Origin: Robiginitomaculum sp.
GTDB lineage: Bacteria > Pseudomonadota > Alphaproteobacteria > Caulobacterales > Maricaulaceae
Assembly: GCA_021776515.1 (NCBI GenBank)
Contig: JAJFFS010000005.1
Location: 1-64,000 of the forward strand
Length of the DNA: 64,000 bases
Reading direction: 5' to 3'
In this document: one piece after another, positions 1 through 43,766 of the stretch
Numbering within the stretch: the stretch's first letter is position 1
How the letters are laid out: each line of letters opens with the position of its first letter
The notes under the pieces: generated by a model
What the model saw: the letters and a program-made list of their open reading frames with translations, nothing else
Database searches by the model: none
What the model was told of the DNA's origin: nothing
Position numbers and translations under genes: made by a program

Positions 1-283
1 TTTCACCAACACCTTCTGGTACGCCGGGCATTCAAACCGGCCCTGTTGTGGCACAGATTGATCCCAAGGCACAGGTTTCACCAACACCTTCTGGCACGCC
101 GGGCGTTCAAACCGGCCCTGTTGTGGCGCAGATTGATCCCAAGGCGCAGGTTTCACCAACACCTTCTGGTACGCCGGGCGTTCAAACCGGCCCTGTTGTG
201 GCGCAGATTGATCCCAAGGCGCAGGTTTCACCAACACCTTCTGGTACGCCGGGTGTGCAAACCGGCCCTGTTGTGGCGCAGAT
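1..283 (+). repeat. In-frame 75-bp tandem repeat (25 aa VVAQIDPKAQVSPTPSGTPGVQTGP), about 3.7 copies in window
   Basis: Near-identical 75-nt units seen directly; array runs into the left edge. Confidence 0.95.
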
Positions 284-1166
284 TTCACCAGAAATTTCAA
301 GTATAGTGCGCTCCTTTAATGCGTCTCCTGGTTTGGTAGAGCCTGTCTCTCGTTTGCGCAGCACAGGTGAAAAGGTTGCCAGCAAACCATCAAGCGTTTC
401 CGGGTCCATTAAAGCCGCGGTCAATCCATCAACATTAACAGCTAATCAGGCAGGCGCTGTTCCAGCAAACTCATTGTTAAATGGTGCCAGTGCAGTCTTG
501 GCACAAGCCATGATGACGTCCTCATCAAACTTTTCGGGATTTGAAAAAAGTGGTTCTGCGTTGAAAGTTGCAGAGCCCTTCGGCATCAGCAGTGGTGAAA
601 CCGGGTTAGATGTTCGCGCTGGCATGCAAGGTATAGAGCAGGGGCAGTCTGCCAGACCGTTGCAGGGGCTGGATAGTCTGACGCCAAAAGCAACATTGGC
701 GGCGCACCATAATGTGCCACGTCTGGATCAGGCAAATCTCGCCGGATTTGCAGCTACATTGGCACAACGTGCGCAGGGCGGTGGTACCAGGTTTGAGATA
801 CGCCTCGACCCGGCGGAATTGGGCAAGGTCCAGGTTCGCCTTGAGGTTAGCGCTGACAACCGGGTGGAAGCCATCGTGAGCACCCAACGCCCTGAAGTGC
901 TCGCTGACTTGCAAAAAGGTGCAGATTCCTTGCGCCGGGCTTTGGTTGATGCGGGTTTTGAACTTGATTCAGACAGCCTGAATTTTTCGCTTGAGCACGG
1001 TAATGATGGTGCCAGTGCCGAGCAGGATTTGGCCCCGGGATATAGTGTAAGTGAAGCAATAGCGCTGGAAGATGCGGCGGAGCCGATGCAAGCGCCAGTT
1101 ACTGAAATTGAGCAAGCATACGGGATGAGACGAATGTTCACAGAACGCGTTGACGTAAAGGTATAA
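1..1166 (+). CDS. fliK: Flagellar hook-length control protein FliK (5' end outside window)
   Basis: C-terminal Flg_hook-type motif RFEIRLDPAELGKVQVRLEVSADNRVEAIVSTQRPEVLADL; directly upstream of flgD; frame open to left edge. Confidence 0.9.
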   Translation, partial: SPTPSGTPGIQTGPVVAQIDPKAQVSPTPSGTPGVQTGPVVAQIDPKAQVSPTPSGTPGVQTGPVVAQIDPKAQVSPTPSGTPGVQTGPVVAQISPEISSIVRSFNASPGLVEPVSRLRSTGEKVASKPSSVSGSIKAAVNPSTLTANQAGAVPANSLLNGASAVLAQAMMTSSSNFSGFEKSGSALKVAEPFGISSGETGLDVRAGMQGIEQGQSARPLQGLDSLTPKATLAAHHNVPRLDQANLAGFAATLAQRAQGGGTRFEIRLDPAELGKVQVRLEVSADNRVEAIVSTQRPEVLADLQKGADSLRRALVDAGFELDSDSLNFSLEHGNDGASAEQDLAPGYSVSEAIALEDAAEPMQAPVTEIEQAYGMRRMFTERVDVKV

Positions 1167-24671: not shown

Positions 24672-24974
24672 ATGAGCAAAATCACTTCTATATCCAGCGC
24701 CACACGTACACAGGCCCGGTCGTCATCTGCACGTCGAGACAACCCGGCATCTGCTAACAGGGCTCTTCCCGTGCCAGTGTCCTTACCATTGCGCCGCGTT
24801 TCGCATACCTTGCGTTCTCCACAAAATGCAGCATTTTCCGCACAACTTTTGGCCGGCAGTCCCCGACGCGGTTTGAAAGCAGAGCCAGCAGAGCAGAGGC
24901 GGGTCTTCAGTACTTACGCCCGTATTCAAAATATGAATTCGCTGGGTGGAACAAAACTTAAAATTCTGGCTTAA
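24672..24974 (+). CDS. Hypothetical 100-aa basic protein
   Basis: ORF in phaR-downstream gap, ends convergent with next gene. Confidence 0.4.
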   Translation: MSKITSISSATRTQARSSSARRDNPASANRALPVPVSLPLRRVSHTLRSPQNAAFSAQLLAGSPRRGLKAEPAEQRRVFSTYARIQNMNSLGGTKLKILA

Positions 24975-25405
24975 TCTGTATATTCTTCTTCGATAATATT
25001 TTCATGTTGTGCCGACATGACGGTAATCATAAAGCCCGCTAAGACATCCAATAGAGCCATAACCATAATGATAAAGAAAAGCGTGGAGGCAAAGGCCGGG
25101 ATTAACAAAAATTCCACCAGACAAATAATAAAAATCGCCAGTGACAAGGTGTGGTTAAACATGGCTTCCCGGCCATGACGCGCTGCTTTTAGAAACTCAG
25201 TAAATAGCGCCAGCAGAGCAATTAATAGAACAACGTCGCCAGAGGTGACAATCCATTGGGTGTTCGATGCCATCGGCACGGTAAACAGGATACGGGCCAG
25301 CCCTTCGACCACCTCTTGCGCTGACCGCGATAGTACACCGCCGCCCAGTGCCATTACATTGTAAATAGCGACAGGTATCACCAATAGTGGAAAATTTCGT
25401 ACCAT
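24971..25405 (-). CDS. Conserved-looking small multi-TM protein
   Basis: Four hydrophobic segments; start chosen at MVRNFPLLVIPVAIYN. Confidence 0.7.
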   Translation of the reverse strand: MVRNFPLLVIPVAIYNVMALGGGVLSRSAQEVVEGLARILFTVPMASNTQWIVTSGDVVLLIALLALFTEFLKAARHGREAMFNHTLSLAIFIICLVEFLLIPAFASTLFFIIMVMALLDVLAGFMITVMSAQHENIIEEEYTD

Positions 25406-25499
25406 ACCCGCACCCTTCTGCGCGGATACTAGCCGAGAACGATACAATTGTCAGGCGTTAACCGGATTTTGGTTACCTGTTGACTTTATCACGATCGTT

Positions 25500-25751
25500 T
25501 CAAGCGCAGTCAGGGGTATGTGTTTCGACCAGGTTTGCCAGGGAGTGCATGATGTCTGCCGTTTGCCTTAGCATGACAACTAAATCAGTAAATTTTTCTT
25601 CATCGATAGTGGTCCCCAGATAAGCACACCAACTCAGATGCGCTTTTAGTTGATCGCGAAGGTCTTCTCTGGATAGAGTCATTTTTCCGTTCACATTTAA
25701 CAACAAAGCTTTTGGTTGAGTGGGTTTGATTTCGTATGTAGATCTGCCCAT
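25500..25751 (-). CDS. Small protein, partner of LuxR-type regulator (copy 1)
   Basis: QLKAHLSWCAYLGTTIDEEKFTDLVVML core shared with 39552-39794; follows LuxR-type gene. Confidence 0.75.
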   Translation of the reverse strand: MGRSTYEIKPTQPKALLLNVNGKMTLSREDLRDQLKAHLSWCAYLGTTIDEEKFTDLVVMLRQTADIMHSLANLVETHTPDCA

Positions 25752-25978
25752 AGGTGTTTCTCCTTAGTGGTTGCCTTGCTTGAAGGTAACGCGCCCCCAG
25801 CGAATCACTTTCTTTCTAAGGAGTTTAATTCTATTAGCCTTCTCATCACTCGTGAACTGACTATACAGACAGCTGTTATTAATGACAGGTTTTTAAAATT
25901 TCAGTTGATTTCTATAAAAAAAATAAGGCTATATATTACTTGTTTGAAACAGACTAAAAACCTGGTTGCCTGCAGCCT

Positions 25979-26731
25979 TTAAGGCAGTATTTCAAGGCTG
26001 TTTGTGGCGTTAATAACGGCTTGCAGGCGCGTATGGGCATTCAGCCTTTCTTTTGCATTTTCGACGTGAAAATGGACGGTGCGTTTGGTAATACCCAATA
26101 TTTCTGCAATATCACCATCTGTTTTTCCAATGGCCACCCAGGTTAAACATTGGCGCTGCCGGCTTGAAAGGATACTGGGTTGCACTTGTGCGTCCTCGGG
26201 TTTGCTATGTACGTCTAATTCACAAGCGCGTTGATAAAAAACTGTGCTTAACCACCATAATACCCAGATTTGCTGTTTCGATAATTTTTCTGGATCACCT
26301 GAAATGGCCAGGTAAGTAACCCGGTTAAACCGCCCCTTTAACGGGAAGACAATCCCGTCAGAGATACCGTAATTACTGGTCTTGTTCATGGAGGCCAGTT
26401 CTTTTGATGATAGATTTTTTCTGTCGATGACCTCATGAGCCTTGAACGGTCTGTTGGTCAGTTTGGCCATACGTGCAGTAGGTGCATCAAAAAGCCGTCG
26501 ATCATTCCAAAAACCGTCCATATAGTCTTCTGGGAATGTCCCAATGACCAATTGTTGACGCTAACAGATACTAATTGATTTTATTTCCAATAATGCAAAA
26601 ATGCTAAAGCTAAAAGAGGCAATAAATTTCTCAAAACAAGAGACCAGTTCTTGTGTTGTCGTCGCTTCAAGTAATTGTTCCATAACCGGTAGATACGAGT
26701 CAAAGCCTATGGTTTCTGACTTGTTATTCAT
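25979..26731 (-). pseudogene. LuxR-type regulator interrupted by an in-frame TAG (copy 1)
   Basis: ORFs 26561-26836 and 25979-26551 share a frame, separated by a single TAG (26563-26561); full length 753 bp equals intact paralog 38639-39391; stop aligns with Trp. Confidence 0.85.
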
Positions 26732-26879: not shown

Positions 26880-27827
26880 TTATGGTGAATGATCCCCTTT
26901 GGGGTGCGCCTTGTCGTATATTTTCAATAATGAATCGGCATCCACATCAGCGTAAATTTGTGTTGAAGACAGACTTTCATGGCCCAATAGTTCTTGCAAG
27001 GCGCGCAAGTCGCCACCGCCGGCCAGCAGATGTGTAGCAAAGGAATGGCGCAAAGCGTGAGGTGTGGCCGTATCGGACAGACCAAGTCGTGCACGTAATT
27101 TTTGCATTAGTTTTTGCGCGGCTCTGGCCCCCATGGCGCCGCCGCGCACACCCCGAAATAATGCTTTTGTCTGTTCCACGGGCCAGGGGCAGACATGGAC
27201 ATAAACGTCTATGGCTTCTCGTACTGCGGGCAGTAATGGCACCAGTCTGGTTTTATTACCCTTGCCAGTAATGCGTAGCACGTCACTCAGTGGAAAATCG
27301 TCGCCCTTTAGGGCCAACGCTTCACTGATACGCAAACCGGCCCCGTAAAGCAAAGTTAGCAAAGCCGCATTTCGGGCGGCAATCCATGGCGCGGTCTTAT
27401 CGGTGTGTTTGGTGCTTTCACTCAGCACGTCTTTGGCGGCTTGTGTTGACAATGGCCTTGGGGCTGTGCGGGCAAGCTTTGGTCCTTCAATGAGGGAAAG
27501 CTGGTTGTTCTTAATGCCCCAGTGCCGTTCAGCATATCGATAGAAACTGCGAATCGATGAGAGGTTTCGGGCCAGGGAACGTGAGGCAAGCGGTGTTTCT
27601 CCGCGCCGCCGCGCTGCCAAATAGCTGCGAAAATCCTGCGCGCTTAACTGCGCCAGCATGGACAGGTTGACCGCTTCGCCGTGATGATCGCACACGTGTA
27701 CAAAAAACGCATCCAGATCACGTTCATAGGCAGATAATGTGTTTGGGCTTAGGCGACGTTCAACACGCAAATAAGTAATAAACGTGGCCAGGGCCTCGTG
27801 TGCTGGGGTTTTCAGGCCGGTGCCCAT
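26880..27827 (-). CDS. xerC: Tyrosine recombinase XerC
   Basis: SAM-like N-term; LLYGAGLRISEALALKGDDF; TPHALRHSFATHLLAGGGDLRALQELLGHESLSSTQIY. Confidence 0.93.
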   Translation of the reverse strand: MGTGLKTPAHEALATFITYLRVERRLSPNTLSAYERDLDAFFVHVCDHHGEAVNLSMLAQLSAQDFRSYLAARRRGETPLASRSLARNLSSIRSFYRYAERHWGIKNNQLSLIEGPKLARTAPRPLSTQAAKDVLSESTKHTDKTAPWIAARNAALLTLLYGAGLRISEALALKGDDFPLSDVLRITGKGNKTRLVPLLPAVREAIDVYVHVCPWPVEQTKALFRGVRGGAMGARAAQKLMQKLRARLGLSDTATPHALRHSFATHLLAGGGDLRALQELLGHESLSSTQIYADVDADSLLKIYDKAHPKGDHSP

Positions 27828-33551: not shown

Positions 33552-35644
<2,093 letters not shown>

Positions 35645-38638: not shown

Positions 38639-39391
38639 ATGACTGTTCAAGCTAACAAGGTAAATTATCCTGGTGATATACCATATTTTGACCTCATAAA
38701 TGGAGCGTCTAATATAGCTGAGCTAACCGATGTCTTCGATCAGGCCGTTAAGGGCTTGGGTTTTGATCTCTTTACCTTGTTTGAGATGCATTCAATAACC
38801 CTGCATTGGCGCAAGCAATTAGTCTTCGGTACTATCCCTGATTTCTTCTGGGATGAGTTCTGGAAAGAGACCCGTATTTTTGAAGCCCCATTAATGCGTC
38901 AAGCCAAAATATCGACTAAACCATTTAAGTTTCGTGATGTTTTTAAGAGCACTGATCTTTCCTGGCGTGAGAAAAAGGCCATACAGAACCCCATTAATGC
39001 GGGGTTTACTGATGGTTTGATTGTTCCCTTAAAGGGGCGACGCAATCGCATGGCCCTGGTGGGTATAACAGGAAATACAGAACATTTATCAGAACGGGAT
39101 ATATGGTCGCTATGGTGTTTAAGCTCGACGCTTTATCAGCGTGCCTGTTCGTTGCCTCCTTATAGTGAAGAAACATTGCTGCAGGCTAAACCAAGTGTGC
39201 TGACACGGCGCCAACGCGAATGTCTTACGTGGGTTGCCATGGGCAAGACCGACGAAGAAGTGGCAAAGGAACTGGGTCTTTCAAAACGGACCATTGGCTT
39301 TCATATAGAAAACGCCAAAGAAAGACTGGGCGTCAGAACTCGCTTGCAAGCTGTTGTTACAGCTACAGAAAATCTGGATATTCTTGTTTAA
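38639..39391 (+). CDS. LuxR-type regulator, autoinducer-binding-like N-term plus GerE HTH (copy 2, intact)
   Basis: LTRRQRECLTWVAMGKTDEEVAKELGLSKRTIGFHIENAKERLGVRTRLQAV; 250 aa from MTVQANKVN. Confidence 0.9.
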   Translation: MTVQANKVNYPGDIPYFDLINGASNIAELTDVFDQAVKGLGFDLFTLFEMHSITLHWRKQLVFGTIPDFFWDEFWKETRIFEAPLMRQAKISTKPFKFRDVFKSTDLSWREKKAIQNPINAGFTDGLIVPLKGRRNRMALVGITGNTEHLSERDIWSLWCLSSTLYQRACSLPPYSEETLLQAKPSVLTRRQRECLTWVAMGKTDEEVAKELGLSKRTIGFHIENAKERLGVRTRLQAVVTATENLDILV

Positions 39392-39463
39392 TATTCAAGG
39401 TCAGGACGCATTCCAATCATTTTATAAAATAATTGGAATTATTCTTGAAACCCCTGTGCTTTG

Positions 39464-39476
39464 ATACAGTCTGTAT
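39464..39476. promoter_or_regulatory. 13-bp palindrome ATACAGTCTGTAT between LuxR-type gene and partner ORF
   Basis: Perfect odd-centre palindrome ~80 bp upstream of partner start. Confidence 0.4.
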
Positions 39477-39551
39477 ATTGTCACAGCTTGCGCTAACCAT
39501 TGGTATTTTTATAGCAATTCTATCAGGGGATATCTGATTCGTTTTGGAGAG

Positions 39552-39794
39552 ATGTTTATGGTTCAGGCAAATGAACTATCAAATAATGATTTGTACAGTG
39601 TGGCACAAATGACAGAATATGAAGGCAGTGCAAAGCAGTTTTGCAGTCAACTTAATGCACACTTGCGCTGGTGTGCTTTTTTAGGTTCATCACTTGAAAA
39701 TGAGTGTCTATCTGACCTTGTTGTGATGTTGGATGAAGCGACACTGACGATGCAAAAATTTACCAAGATTGCAAGAAAACTTGCCGAAGATTGA
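39552..39794 (+). CDS. Small protein, partner of LuxR-type regulator (copy 2)
   Basis: QLNAHLRWCAFLGSSLENECLSDLVVML core shared with 25500-25751. Confidence 0.8.
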   Translation: MFMVQANELSNNDLYSVAQMTEYEGSAKQFCSQLNAHLRWCAFLGSSLENECLSDLVVMLDEATLTMQKFTKIARKLAED

Positions 39795-40498: not shown

Positions 40499-40703
40499 AG
40501 GGTTTTCTCCACGTAATATTATGAAAATACGTTAACCATATTTACGTGATCTTAACGCAATCAGGGTTTTTGTTAACCAAGATTGACACGGGGTTACCGG
40601 GGCTACTCCTGTGGATAACCCCGTATGTTGTATGTATGACCGCATATTTACACCATATCATGGTGTGACTAACTTGGGACGGTACAAAAGGGGAGTGATT
40701 CGG

Positions 40704-43700
40704 ATGGCCACTGGCCCGTGGAGTGTTAAGGGGATCGATCCGCAAGCGCGAGAAGCCGCCAAAGCTGCTGCCCAGCGCGAGGGTTTGACACTGGGCGAGT
40801 GGATGAACCAGCGACTTTTGGGTGAAGCCGCAGCTATGCCTTCGCGTTCTCATACCCAGCCCTATGAACGCGCACGGTTTACTGCACCGGGCTCGTTATC
40901 CATTCTTTCCAATAATACCAACCATCAGGACGTCTATGATGCGATTGAAGATCTGACGGCTCGGCTAGAGGCTGCAGAACGGCGTTCGACATTGGCGATC
41001 ACGGGTATTGATCAGTCAGTTCTGGGTATGTTGACCCGCCTGGAAGGCGTGGAAAAAGTCCATGGGAACATTGCCAGCAAGCTGGACGATTCGCTGAGTA
41101 ATCTTGATAACCTGGCCACAAAGTCTCGTGATGAACTTGATCGGATGGTTAGCAAGGTTGATCGCGCCACAGAAGATTCGGCGCGCCGCATTGATACCGT
41201 TGCCGAACACACCGAGCTACAACTTGGGCGCGCTCGCCATGAGCTTGCCAAGGAACTGGAACTGGTAAATTCACACTCTGATGACCTGACCCAACGTCTG
41301 GGTGCGGCAGAGCGTATGACCGACAATGCAGTGCGTACACTTGAGGCCAGCTTTGCCTCGGTAGATGATCGTTTGCGTCAATCAGAGAAAAAAATAAACG
41401 AGAATGGCAGCGAAGCTCTGTCGGATATGTTTTCTCGGCGGTTTAAGAGTTTAAGTGAGGAACTTATCCATGTGGTTGCCCAGACGCGGGGGCAATTGGC
41501 CAGCCAAATAGAAACTCAATCGGCAGCACCACGTCTGGAGCAATTCGAAACCTCCCTTCGTGAAGTGCGCGGCAGTATCACTAAAACAGAACGCCGCCAT
41601 GCTGACACGCTGGAACGCATTGCTGGCGAGGTTGGTAAATTAGGTAGTGCTATTGAGCACCGTTTTTCAGAAACCGAACGCAATACAGCCATTGGCCTGG
41701 ATAAAATGCTGGATGGCCGGTTTCGTGAATTTCAAAACGATCATGCTGTAGCAATAGATAAAATTGGTGATGGGCTAACCGGAGCCATCACCCGACTTGA
41801 AGAAAAATTGAATAATGTTGAGATGCAGCGCAACGCTGAAGACAACCTTGAAACGCGCATGGCTGCTGCTGAAGAGCGGACAGCAAAAATGATAGAAGAC
41901 GCTATGGGGCGTATTCAAGATCAGCTAAACATGCAAGCCGCACCCGACCAGGATACGGAAGACTCCCCTGTCCAGAAGGCCATGACCGCACTGGCCACGC
42001 GCCTTGAAACACTGGAAAACCAAGCCGTTGATGTTCCGTTTTTTGACCCAACCCTGCCCACAGATGGAGTGTCACCTCCCCCTTTAGCGGGTTCACCAGC
42101 CGGGCCAAACCCTGCGTTGGAAGAGGTTATCAGGCCGCCTCATGTTTTTGCCAATGAAGCGCCAGTATCTTTACCTCCTCTGCCTCAAGAAAATGAGGAA
42201 GAGGCCGTAAGCGACTTTGGGTCATTTGATGGGGAACCCTTTGCCGATGCGGTTCAACTTGAGCCAGAAAATATGCCAGAGGCCGTGATTGCACCTGTCT
42301 ATTCCGCTGATGAAGAGCAATTTTCCCCGGCAGGCGCAACTGCTGATGCCAGTTTTATGGCTGCTGCCAGACGTACCGTTCGTGCGCCAGGGGTTGCGCA
42401 CTCCCAAGGTGCCGTGCCCGGTAATGGGCAATCCTATTCTCATGGTGGTCCCGCCACGCCTTCCGGGGGTGCGCGTAAGCTTCTTATGGCGGCCAGTTTT
42501 TTTGCCATTATCGCTATTGTTGGCGCGGGTGGTATGACGTATCTGGACTTTGGCAATGGCGACAAAAACATCAGCGCCGGTGTGTCAAACACAGCGAATG
42601 CCGATTGGGATACGCTGGTTGATGGCACCGCAGAAACAGCTGAGGGTACACAAATTGCAACTTTGCCATTGCCGATCGACAATGGTTTGCAAAACCCGGA
42701 CAATATAGCAACGCTGGATGGTGCTGCGCCGATCTCCGCATCTGAAAGTTCGACAAAAGCTGTTTTGGTTCAAAAAACAAAACCTGATCCAGCGCCAAAA
42801 TATGCCCCTGTAAAGACGGCCAGCCGTCCGCCAGCCCGTTCCTCGCAAACCGCCTCAAGCGAACCTGTGGTGCCACCTCTGGCACAACCAAGCATTCCCG
42901 TTAATGCTGTTCCCTTGGCGCAGGCCCAGTCAAAGCCTGCCTCAAAAAGCACAACTGGCCGACTAACCGTTCAACAAGCAGCAACCAATGGTGATCCGGT
43001 TGCACAGTTTCAACTGGCTTCAGCCAAGATTGATGCTGGCGATACACAGGAAGGTATTGCCCTGATGCGTCAGGCTGCCAATAGAGGTCTTCCTATTGCA
43101 CAATATCGTTTGGGCAAGGTTTATGAAGATGGTACAGGCGTAACCAGGGATGCCGATGAAGGTCGGCGCTGGACCGAGCGCGCGGCCAATGGCGGCAATC
43201 GCCGGGCCATGCACAATCTTGCAATGCTCTATGCCGAAGGCAACAGCGTTACACAAAGTTATGAAACTGCGGCCAAATGGTTTCAGGAAGCGGCTAGAAT
43301 GGGCCTGACCAATTCCCAATACAATCTGGCCTTTTTGTACGAGCAAGGCCTTGGTGTTCCTGAATCGCTTGCTGAAGCTTTTGCCTGGTATTCCATTGCT
43401 GGAAAGGCCGGTGATGAAGGTGCCAGGGAGCGGGCAGGTGAAATCAGGGCAACGCTTTCAGTTAAAGCCAAGAGTGAGGCTAATACGATCATTGCCGATT
43501 TTACCCCTCGGCCACTGGATTTGGCAGCAAACGGAATTTTCCGTAATGTTAGCTGGGCCCGACCACAATTAAACACCGCGCCCAACATTGCGCGGACGCA
43601 AATATTATTGGCGCGGCTCGGGTATCAGCCCGGCCCGGCAGACGGCAATCTTGGTGGTGCGACAAAGCGAGCGGTTATTGCCTATGAGCGCGATAATGGT

Positions 43701-43766
43701 TTGGCGCAAACGGGCCGTATTGATGCGACTTTGCTGGCAAAACTGGAAGCGGCGGCAGTGAACTAG
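40704..43766 (+). CDS. PodJ-like polar organiser: coiled-coil, TM, Sel1 repeats, peptidoglycan-binding domain
   Basis: PWSVKGIDPQAREAAKAAAQREGLTLGEWMNQRLLG N-term; long coiled-coil; TM LLMAASFFAIIAIVGAGG; Sel1 repeats; C-terminal PG_binding_1. Confidence 0.85.
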   Translation: MATGPWSVKGIDPQAREAAKAAAQREGLTLGEWMNQRLLGEAAAMPSRSHTQPYERARFTAPGSLSILSNNTNHQDVYDAIEDLTARLEAAERRSTLAITGIDQSVLGMLTRLEGVEKVHGNIASKLDDSLSNLDNLATKSRDELDRMVSKVDRATEDSARRIDTVAEHTELQLGRARHELAKELELVNSHSDDLTQRLGAAERMTDNAVRTLEASFASVDDRLRQSEKKINENGSEALSDMFSRRFKSLSEELIHVVAQTRGQLASQIETQSAAPRLEQFETSLREVRGSITKTERRHADTLERIAGEVGKLGSAIEHRFSETERNTAIGLDKMLDGRFREFQNDHAVAIDKIGDGLTGAITRLEEKLNNVEMQRNAEDNLETRMAAAEERTAKMIEDAMGRIQDQLNMQAAPDQDTEDSPVQKAMTALATRLETLENQAVDVPFFDPTLPTDGVSPPPLAGSPAGPNPALEEVIRPPHVFANEAPVSLPPLPQENEEEAVSDFGSFDGEPFADAVQLEPENMPEAVIAPVYSADEEQFSPAGATADASFMAAARRTVRAPGVAHSQGAVPGNGQSYSHGGPATPSGGARKLLMAASFFAIIAIVGAGGMTYLDFGNGDKNISAGVSNTANADWDTLVDGTAETAEGTQIATLPLPIDNGLQNPDNIATLDGAAPISASESSTKAVLVQKTKPDPAPKYAPVKTASRPPARSSQTASSEPVVPPLAQPSIPVNAVPLAQAQSKPASKSTTGRLTVQQAATNGDPVAQFQLASAKIDAGDTQEGIALMRQAANRGLPIAQYRLGKVYEDGTGVTRDADEGRRWTERAANGGNRRAMHNLAMLYAEGNSVTQSYETAAKWFQEAARMGLTNSQYNLAFLYEQGLGVPESLAEAFAWYSIAGKAGDEGARERAGEIRATLSVKAKSEANTIIADFTPRPLDLAANGIFRNVSWARPQLNTAPNIARTQILLARLGYQPGPADGNLGGATKRAVIAYERDNGLAQTGRIDATLLAKLEAAAVN

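Follow-up and report, generated by a model that had tools for sequence, protein, structure and literature searches.

In the 64 kb window (the whole stretch of DNA that was analysed), a LuxR-type regulator gene located downstream of xerC and here named luxR-x is interrupted by an amber codon in an otherwise open frame. Is this a gene that has been lost, a recoded or truncated regulator, or an error of the assembly, and what would a loss mean for the genes around it? The features of the locus and the paralog of luxR-x are the following.

25979..26731, minus strand: luxR-x, a gene with an autoinducer-binding domain and a GerE HTH, one amber interruption, downstream of xerC
26561..26563, minus strand: in-frame TAG of luxR-x, at a position held by Trp in the paralog and the 16 other homologues of clades A and B
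26564..26731, minus strand: N-terminal stub of luxR-x, 56 codons
25979..26551, minus strand: C-terminal open frame of luxR-x, 190 codons from TTG, containing the HTH and the greater part of the ligand domain
26880..27827, minus strand: xerC, conserved upstream neighbour and synteny anchor of luxR-x
38639..39391, plus strand: luxR-a, the intact paralog, 44% identical, downstream of ATP synthase genes

The amber codon of luxR-x

The luxR-x frame extends from 26731 to 25979 on the minus strand and comprises 250 codons (MNNKSETIG...EIKSISIC*RQQLVIGTFPEDYMDGFW...LEILP*). It contains exactly one internal stop, the TAG at 26561-26563, and no frameshift, as was already described in the earlier note, in which two ORFs of the same frame, split by TAG alone and free of any further disabling lesion, had been recognised. 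Both domains of the LuxR-type receptor family are present. The C-terminal frame of luxR-x matched PF03472 at 1.2e-08 (35 bits, cut-off 23) and PF00196 at 2.3e-17 (62.8 bits, above the cut-off), and luxR-a, the sole other luxR-x homologue found in a search of the host genome, matched the same two families with 47.3 and 59.8 bits, respectively.

In an alignment of 25 sequences, the column of the stop is occupied by Trp in luxR-a and in 16 of 16 other homologues of clades A and B (defined below), and by Phe or Pro in clade C. The change from TGG to TAG is a single G-to-A step, so that the alignment bears out what had been proposed from the paralog. None of the other aligned LuxR homologues has a stop (an apparent one in genome G001 is an N). 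From the alignment, the lesion is a substitution and nothing special: a nonsense change at a Trp codon is unremarkable, TGG being one of the codons that turn most readily into a stop, and about 4.3% of all point changes in the luxR-x ORF would create one. The change is a point substitution and not a change in repeat length, and there was no sign of a phase-variable allele, one of the readings considered previously.

Amber suppression or recoding at 26561-26563 is very unlikely in view of the translation apparatus and of the use of TAG, and was rejected. A search for a suppressor tRNA, as had been suggested, revealed no CUA anticodon among the 39 tRNAs detected in the host genome, release factor 1 (RF1) is present, and TAG terminates 11 of the 45 genes of the window (among them the ORFs 33552-34109 and 40611-43766), in agreement with the previous argument that it is an ordinary stop here. 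The frame and its conserved residues do run on beyond the stop, as they would if readthrough supplied a low level of full-length LuxR; given the same tRNA, RF1 and stop codon data and the lack of a homologue with a stop at this position, such readthrough is scarcely credible.

The entirely open frame after the stop, with its HTH, might also be translated separately. The first restart codon is TTG 26551, followed by ATG 26521, and the product would miss the first 60 to 70 residues of the protein. The omega downstream of the stop is low (0.19 in a codon model with saturated synonymous sites), and a precedent for a functional truncated LuxR-type protein is TrlR of Agrobacterium, which lacks the DNA-binding domain only and is dominant negative (PMC13043044). 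However, TTG 26551 is not preceded by a Shine-Dalgarno-like sequence and ATG 26521 only by a weak AGAAGA, the ligand domain is lost in its initial part only, and the low omega reflects the history prior to the stop. A restart is therefore unlikely, and a functional HTH-bearing regulator resulting from it very unlikely. The N-terminal part fares no better. As with TrlR, the gene specifies a truncated LuxR-type protein; unlike TrlR, the luxR-x stop leaves 56 residues only, which makes a dominant-negative action of the TrlR kind unlikely. Nothing in the sequence speaks for two useful fragments, the third of the earlier readings.

Relatives of luxR-x and age of the lesion

With a threshold of E <= 1e-20, the LuxR family was found in every one of the 18 genus genomes; 119 other genomes of the taxonomic family gave no match. 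The LuxR tree consists of three clades, A, B and C, with both window copies near clade A. The gene order priA, tal, a 187-aa ORF, xerC and luxR is common to the host genome and to G014, G011, G013, G006 and G017, and in three of these five genomes a histidine kinase is part of the conserved order as well; xerC was assigned by domain search, and the names priA and tal are presumptive. In G001, a clade A luxR is located about 220 nt downstream of an xerC match, as judged by coordinates. The xerC-linked luxR is intact in all of the five genomes sharing the order, and the order makes luxR-x an orthologue of this conserved gene, which is broken here alone. The TAG is thus a disabling mutation, restricted to the host genome, in a gene that is intact in relatives, as in a pseudogene. 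The earlier note had compared luxR-x with the paralog only, for which the syntenic xerC-linked orthologues are the better substitute, and had overlooked the lux box and the partner gene downstream.

Compared with G011, the identity is 94% for tal, 78% for xerC and 47% for luxR; by these values luxR is evolving much faster than its neighbour genes. Divergence as such is no mark of the broken copy, since luxR-x and luxR-a are about equally diverged from the rest. In a leave-one-out comparison, luxR-x deviates at 6 of the 54 clade A columns that are invariant in the other sequences, the stop included, and the intact luxR-a and the intact luxR of G006 deviate at 6 each. There is no sign of excess decay at the conserved columns of luxR-x. 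The accumulation of frameshifts, which had been named beforehand as the mark of simple old decay, was not seen either. The absence of further lesions bounds the neutral period of luxR-x at about 0.04-0.09 substitutions per site, the value varying with the assumed indel rate. A branch codon model is given little weight here, since its synonymous sites are saturated: omega was 0.26 for luxR-x against a background of 0.13 (not significant), omega = 1 was rejected only marginally for luxR-x (2 dlnL about 4.1), and the intact luxR-a had a higher value of about 1.0.

That luxR-x is intact in the organism, the TAG being a minority allele or a fault of sequencing or assembly, would be a simple explanation for a gene that is one base away from an open frame and has kept every other conserved feature. 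Against this stand the quality of the assembly (2.57 Mb in 21 contigs, 99.85% complete, 0 contamination), the unbroken state of the neighbouring conserved genes and the kind of fault met in deficient MAGs of the genus, e.g. G017, which show indels instead; we consider an error unlikely. Repeated LuxR decay within the genus was considered and rejected, since the stop-riddled copies on G017:C3 are probable assembly frameshifts and xerC is broken there too. The region in question (L048, G017:C3:1-5100) carries tandem luxR-small gene modules beside an xerC-like end with many frame breaks, and its first part is 96-99% identical to contig C18; the breaks are probably assembly frameshifts at the contig end. 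For luxR-x itself, the data are best read as a recent nonsense allele, the amber codon probably being a real but ordinary recent loss; of the readings offered previously, the very recent pseudogene is the one best supported.

The small partner gene and its lux box

Downstream of luxR-x, and again beside luxR-a, a small gene is found together with a lux box or similar sites.

25871..25890, minus strand: lux box ACCTGTCATTAATAACAGCT, the highest-scoring site of the window with 11 half-site bases out of 12
25500..25751, minus strand: small helical protein gene, 83 aa, intact, with a good Shine-Dalgarno sequence (AAGGAG), partner gene of the module
39452..39488, plus strand: two overlapping degenerate lux-box-like sites, CCCTGTGCTTTGATACAGTC and GTCTGTATATTGTCACAGCT, 9 of 12 each
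39552..39794, plus strand: second small partner gene, 80 aa, beside luxR-a

The 83-aa ORF begins 227 nt downstream of luxR-x. Homologues of this clade A small gene adjoin the clade A luxR in G014, G013, G006, G001 and G017, and in clades B and C a small gene of about 80 codons is located after the box. A protein profile built from clades B and C had matches beside luxR in 15 genomes of the genus and also retrieved clade A members, including the window's own 83-aa protein at E 0.006. Together with the alignment of the clade A profile with that of B and C (hhalign, E 2.4e-6), these cross-matches identify a family that is homologous across all three clades. It is present in 17 of the 18 genus genomes, the exception being G007. 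Outside the genus, matches were limited to weak ones within frames of 1000 aa in genus g13, and 397 genomes sampled from the order gave none. No family of Pfam or NCBIfam matched the small protein above its curated cut-off. AlphaFold2 predicted a two-helix hairpin, which in clade B is extended by an N-terminal helix (mean pLDDT 75 and 82, pTM 0.59). Foldseek gave no significant match in the PDB (none with E <= 0.001), the hits being generic helical hairpins, many of them from ribosomal proteins. Sequence searches of the PDB returned ribosomal L29, designed or coiled-coil chains and other unrelated chains, and no TraM. Downstream of the small gene, a 158-codon ORF (24971-25447, minus strand) has several hydrophobic, membrane-like stretches and no Pfam match. 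At the start of the window (48-1166), a FliK-like ORF with perfect tandem repeats (AQIDPKAQVSPTPSGTPGVQTGPVV) is located upstream of flagellar genes.

The lux box of Vibrio fischeri has the consensus of a 20-bp dyad, ACCTGT-N8-ACAGGT. Half-site scores are given here as the number of bases out of 12 that agree with this consensus. The box ACCTGTCATTAATAACAGCT is situated between luxR-x and the 83-aa ORF and overlaps the -35 element of a promoter-like site (25888-25860). By sequence, 25871-25890 is a 20-bp dyad near a promoter-like site, as in promoters controlled by LuxR, and a putative operator. Of the 27 luxR copies of the genus, 20 are followed within 150 nt by a site that scores 10 of 12 or more, compared with 0.13 expected and a maximum of 2 in mononucleotide shuffles, which served as the background. 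In G016, a perfect box (12/12) precedes a small gene that is separated from the clade A luxR by 16.6 kb; no box was found after the clade A luxR of G016 and G011, both of which are without an adjacent small gene. The lux box thus accompanies the small gene even when luxR lies at another place.

Several of the sites in clades B and C are perfect hairpins followed by T, as would be expected if the sites after the luxR genes were intrinsic luxR terminators and the module a mere neighbourhood. Yet the half-site letters themselves are kept between clades, for which pairing alone would give no reason; the sites in the window, in G001 and in G014 are without a T run, and no terminator was called at 25871-25890. 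In G016 the site has moreover kept its place by the small gene, and it is missing where the small gene is missing. An explanation by terminators only is quite unlikely on these grounds, although some of the box signal of clades B and C could double as a luxR terminator. The reading of the box as an operator is favoured. A wider lux regulon in the host genome was rejected, as four sites within one mismatch of the consensus compare with two in a control with the reversed pattern; the other three of these sites are located inside an ORF, between convergent genes and in a region without a clear target. The sole perfect lux box (12/12) of the host genome (G000:C9:85143-85162; L208 around 1644) lies near tRNA-Ile without a clear ORF and is possibly due to chance.

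A LuxR solo module of the genus

LuxI (PF00765) is encoded in one of the 18 genus genomes, G007, and not in the host genome, where the LuxR proteins are accordingly LuxR solos, i.e. without a cognate LuxI. The closest solved relative is CviR. The ligand-contacting Asp (D70 in TraR, D97 in CviR) is a mark of canonical AHL receptors and not of the whole family. In the alignment with CviR, Asp is present at this position in clade C only, while Ser or Ala takes its place in clades A and B. Given this exchange and the lack of LuxI in the host genome, the ligand of the clade A and B proteins may not be a standard AHL. G007 (L139, G007:C1:7063-7473; L213), the sole genus genome with LuxI, is also the sole one in which the small partner was not found, and its lux box is located directly before a GAPDH-like gene. 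Clade C luxR genes (L039, L045, L046, L047 and L060) are positioned directly upstream of GAPDH-like genes, accompanied by PGK-like genes where the locus extends far enough, and these loci carry the small gene as well, with the exception of L039. The neighbourhood of clade C might point to a connection with central carbon metabolism.

We consider it likely that luxR-x is a recent nonsense allele within a genus-wide module of a LuxR solo, a lux box and a partner of about 80 aa, with luxR-a perhaps acting in trans. Where the module is intact, LuxR probably regulates the small gene by binding to the lux box; the small protein, with less certainty, would feed back on LuxR by direct contact. The host genome has lost the function of the xerC-linked LuxR but keeps the box and the small gene of this LuxR intact. 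The second module, 13 kb from the first, has an intact LuxR and a degenerate box (9/12 compared to 11/12), for which reason an action of luxR-a in trans on the box of the luxR-x module is the most economical working model. The redundancy provided by a second LuxR would have let the stop codon persist. A further-reaching proposal, which we regard as tentative and on balance doubtful, is that the small proteins form a new family of LuxR partners confined to the genus, either antiactivators or co-regulators, placed under LuxR control via the box, and that reciprocal decay (a dead LuxR with a good box, a live LuxR with a poor one) has rewired one LuxR to serve both modules.

In known systems, a LuxR-type regulator paired with a small protein is found in TraR-TraM of Agrobacterium, where TraM binds TraR and blocks its DNA binding (PMC13043044). 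The pair in the window resembles this arrangement, as far as the genes alone can tell, and by analogy the small protein is perhaps an antiactivator. TraM homology, however, was supported neither by sequence (Pfam, NCBIfam, PDB) nor by fold. TraM is all-helical. The small protein has no TraM match and would at most act like TraM. With LuxR solos in general, the window proteins share the autoinducer-binding domain, the GerE HTH and the lack of LuxI in the genome; they differ in the Ser or Ala of clades A and B at the CviR Asp position and in the dedicated small partner gene with its lux box. Literature searches, largely confined to papers outside subscription, found none on Robiginitomaculum with LuxR and none joining LuxR solos, Alphaproteobacteria and a small protein. 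Provisionally, the LuxR-small gene module present throughout the genus is apparently undescribed.

Taken alone, the amber codon probably marks an ordinary recent pseudogene, and the more useful result is the genus-wide module. In this LuxR solo system, which has no LuxI, the sequence itself points to a likely target, as the lux box keeps to the small gene even when luxR and the small gene part. LuxR solos are often without known targets or partners, so that the module would offer a directly testable set of regulator, operator and partner, and luxR-x a natural example of a dead regulator whose operator and target survive.
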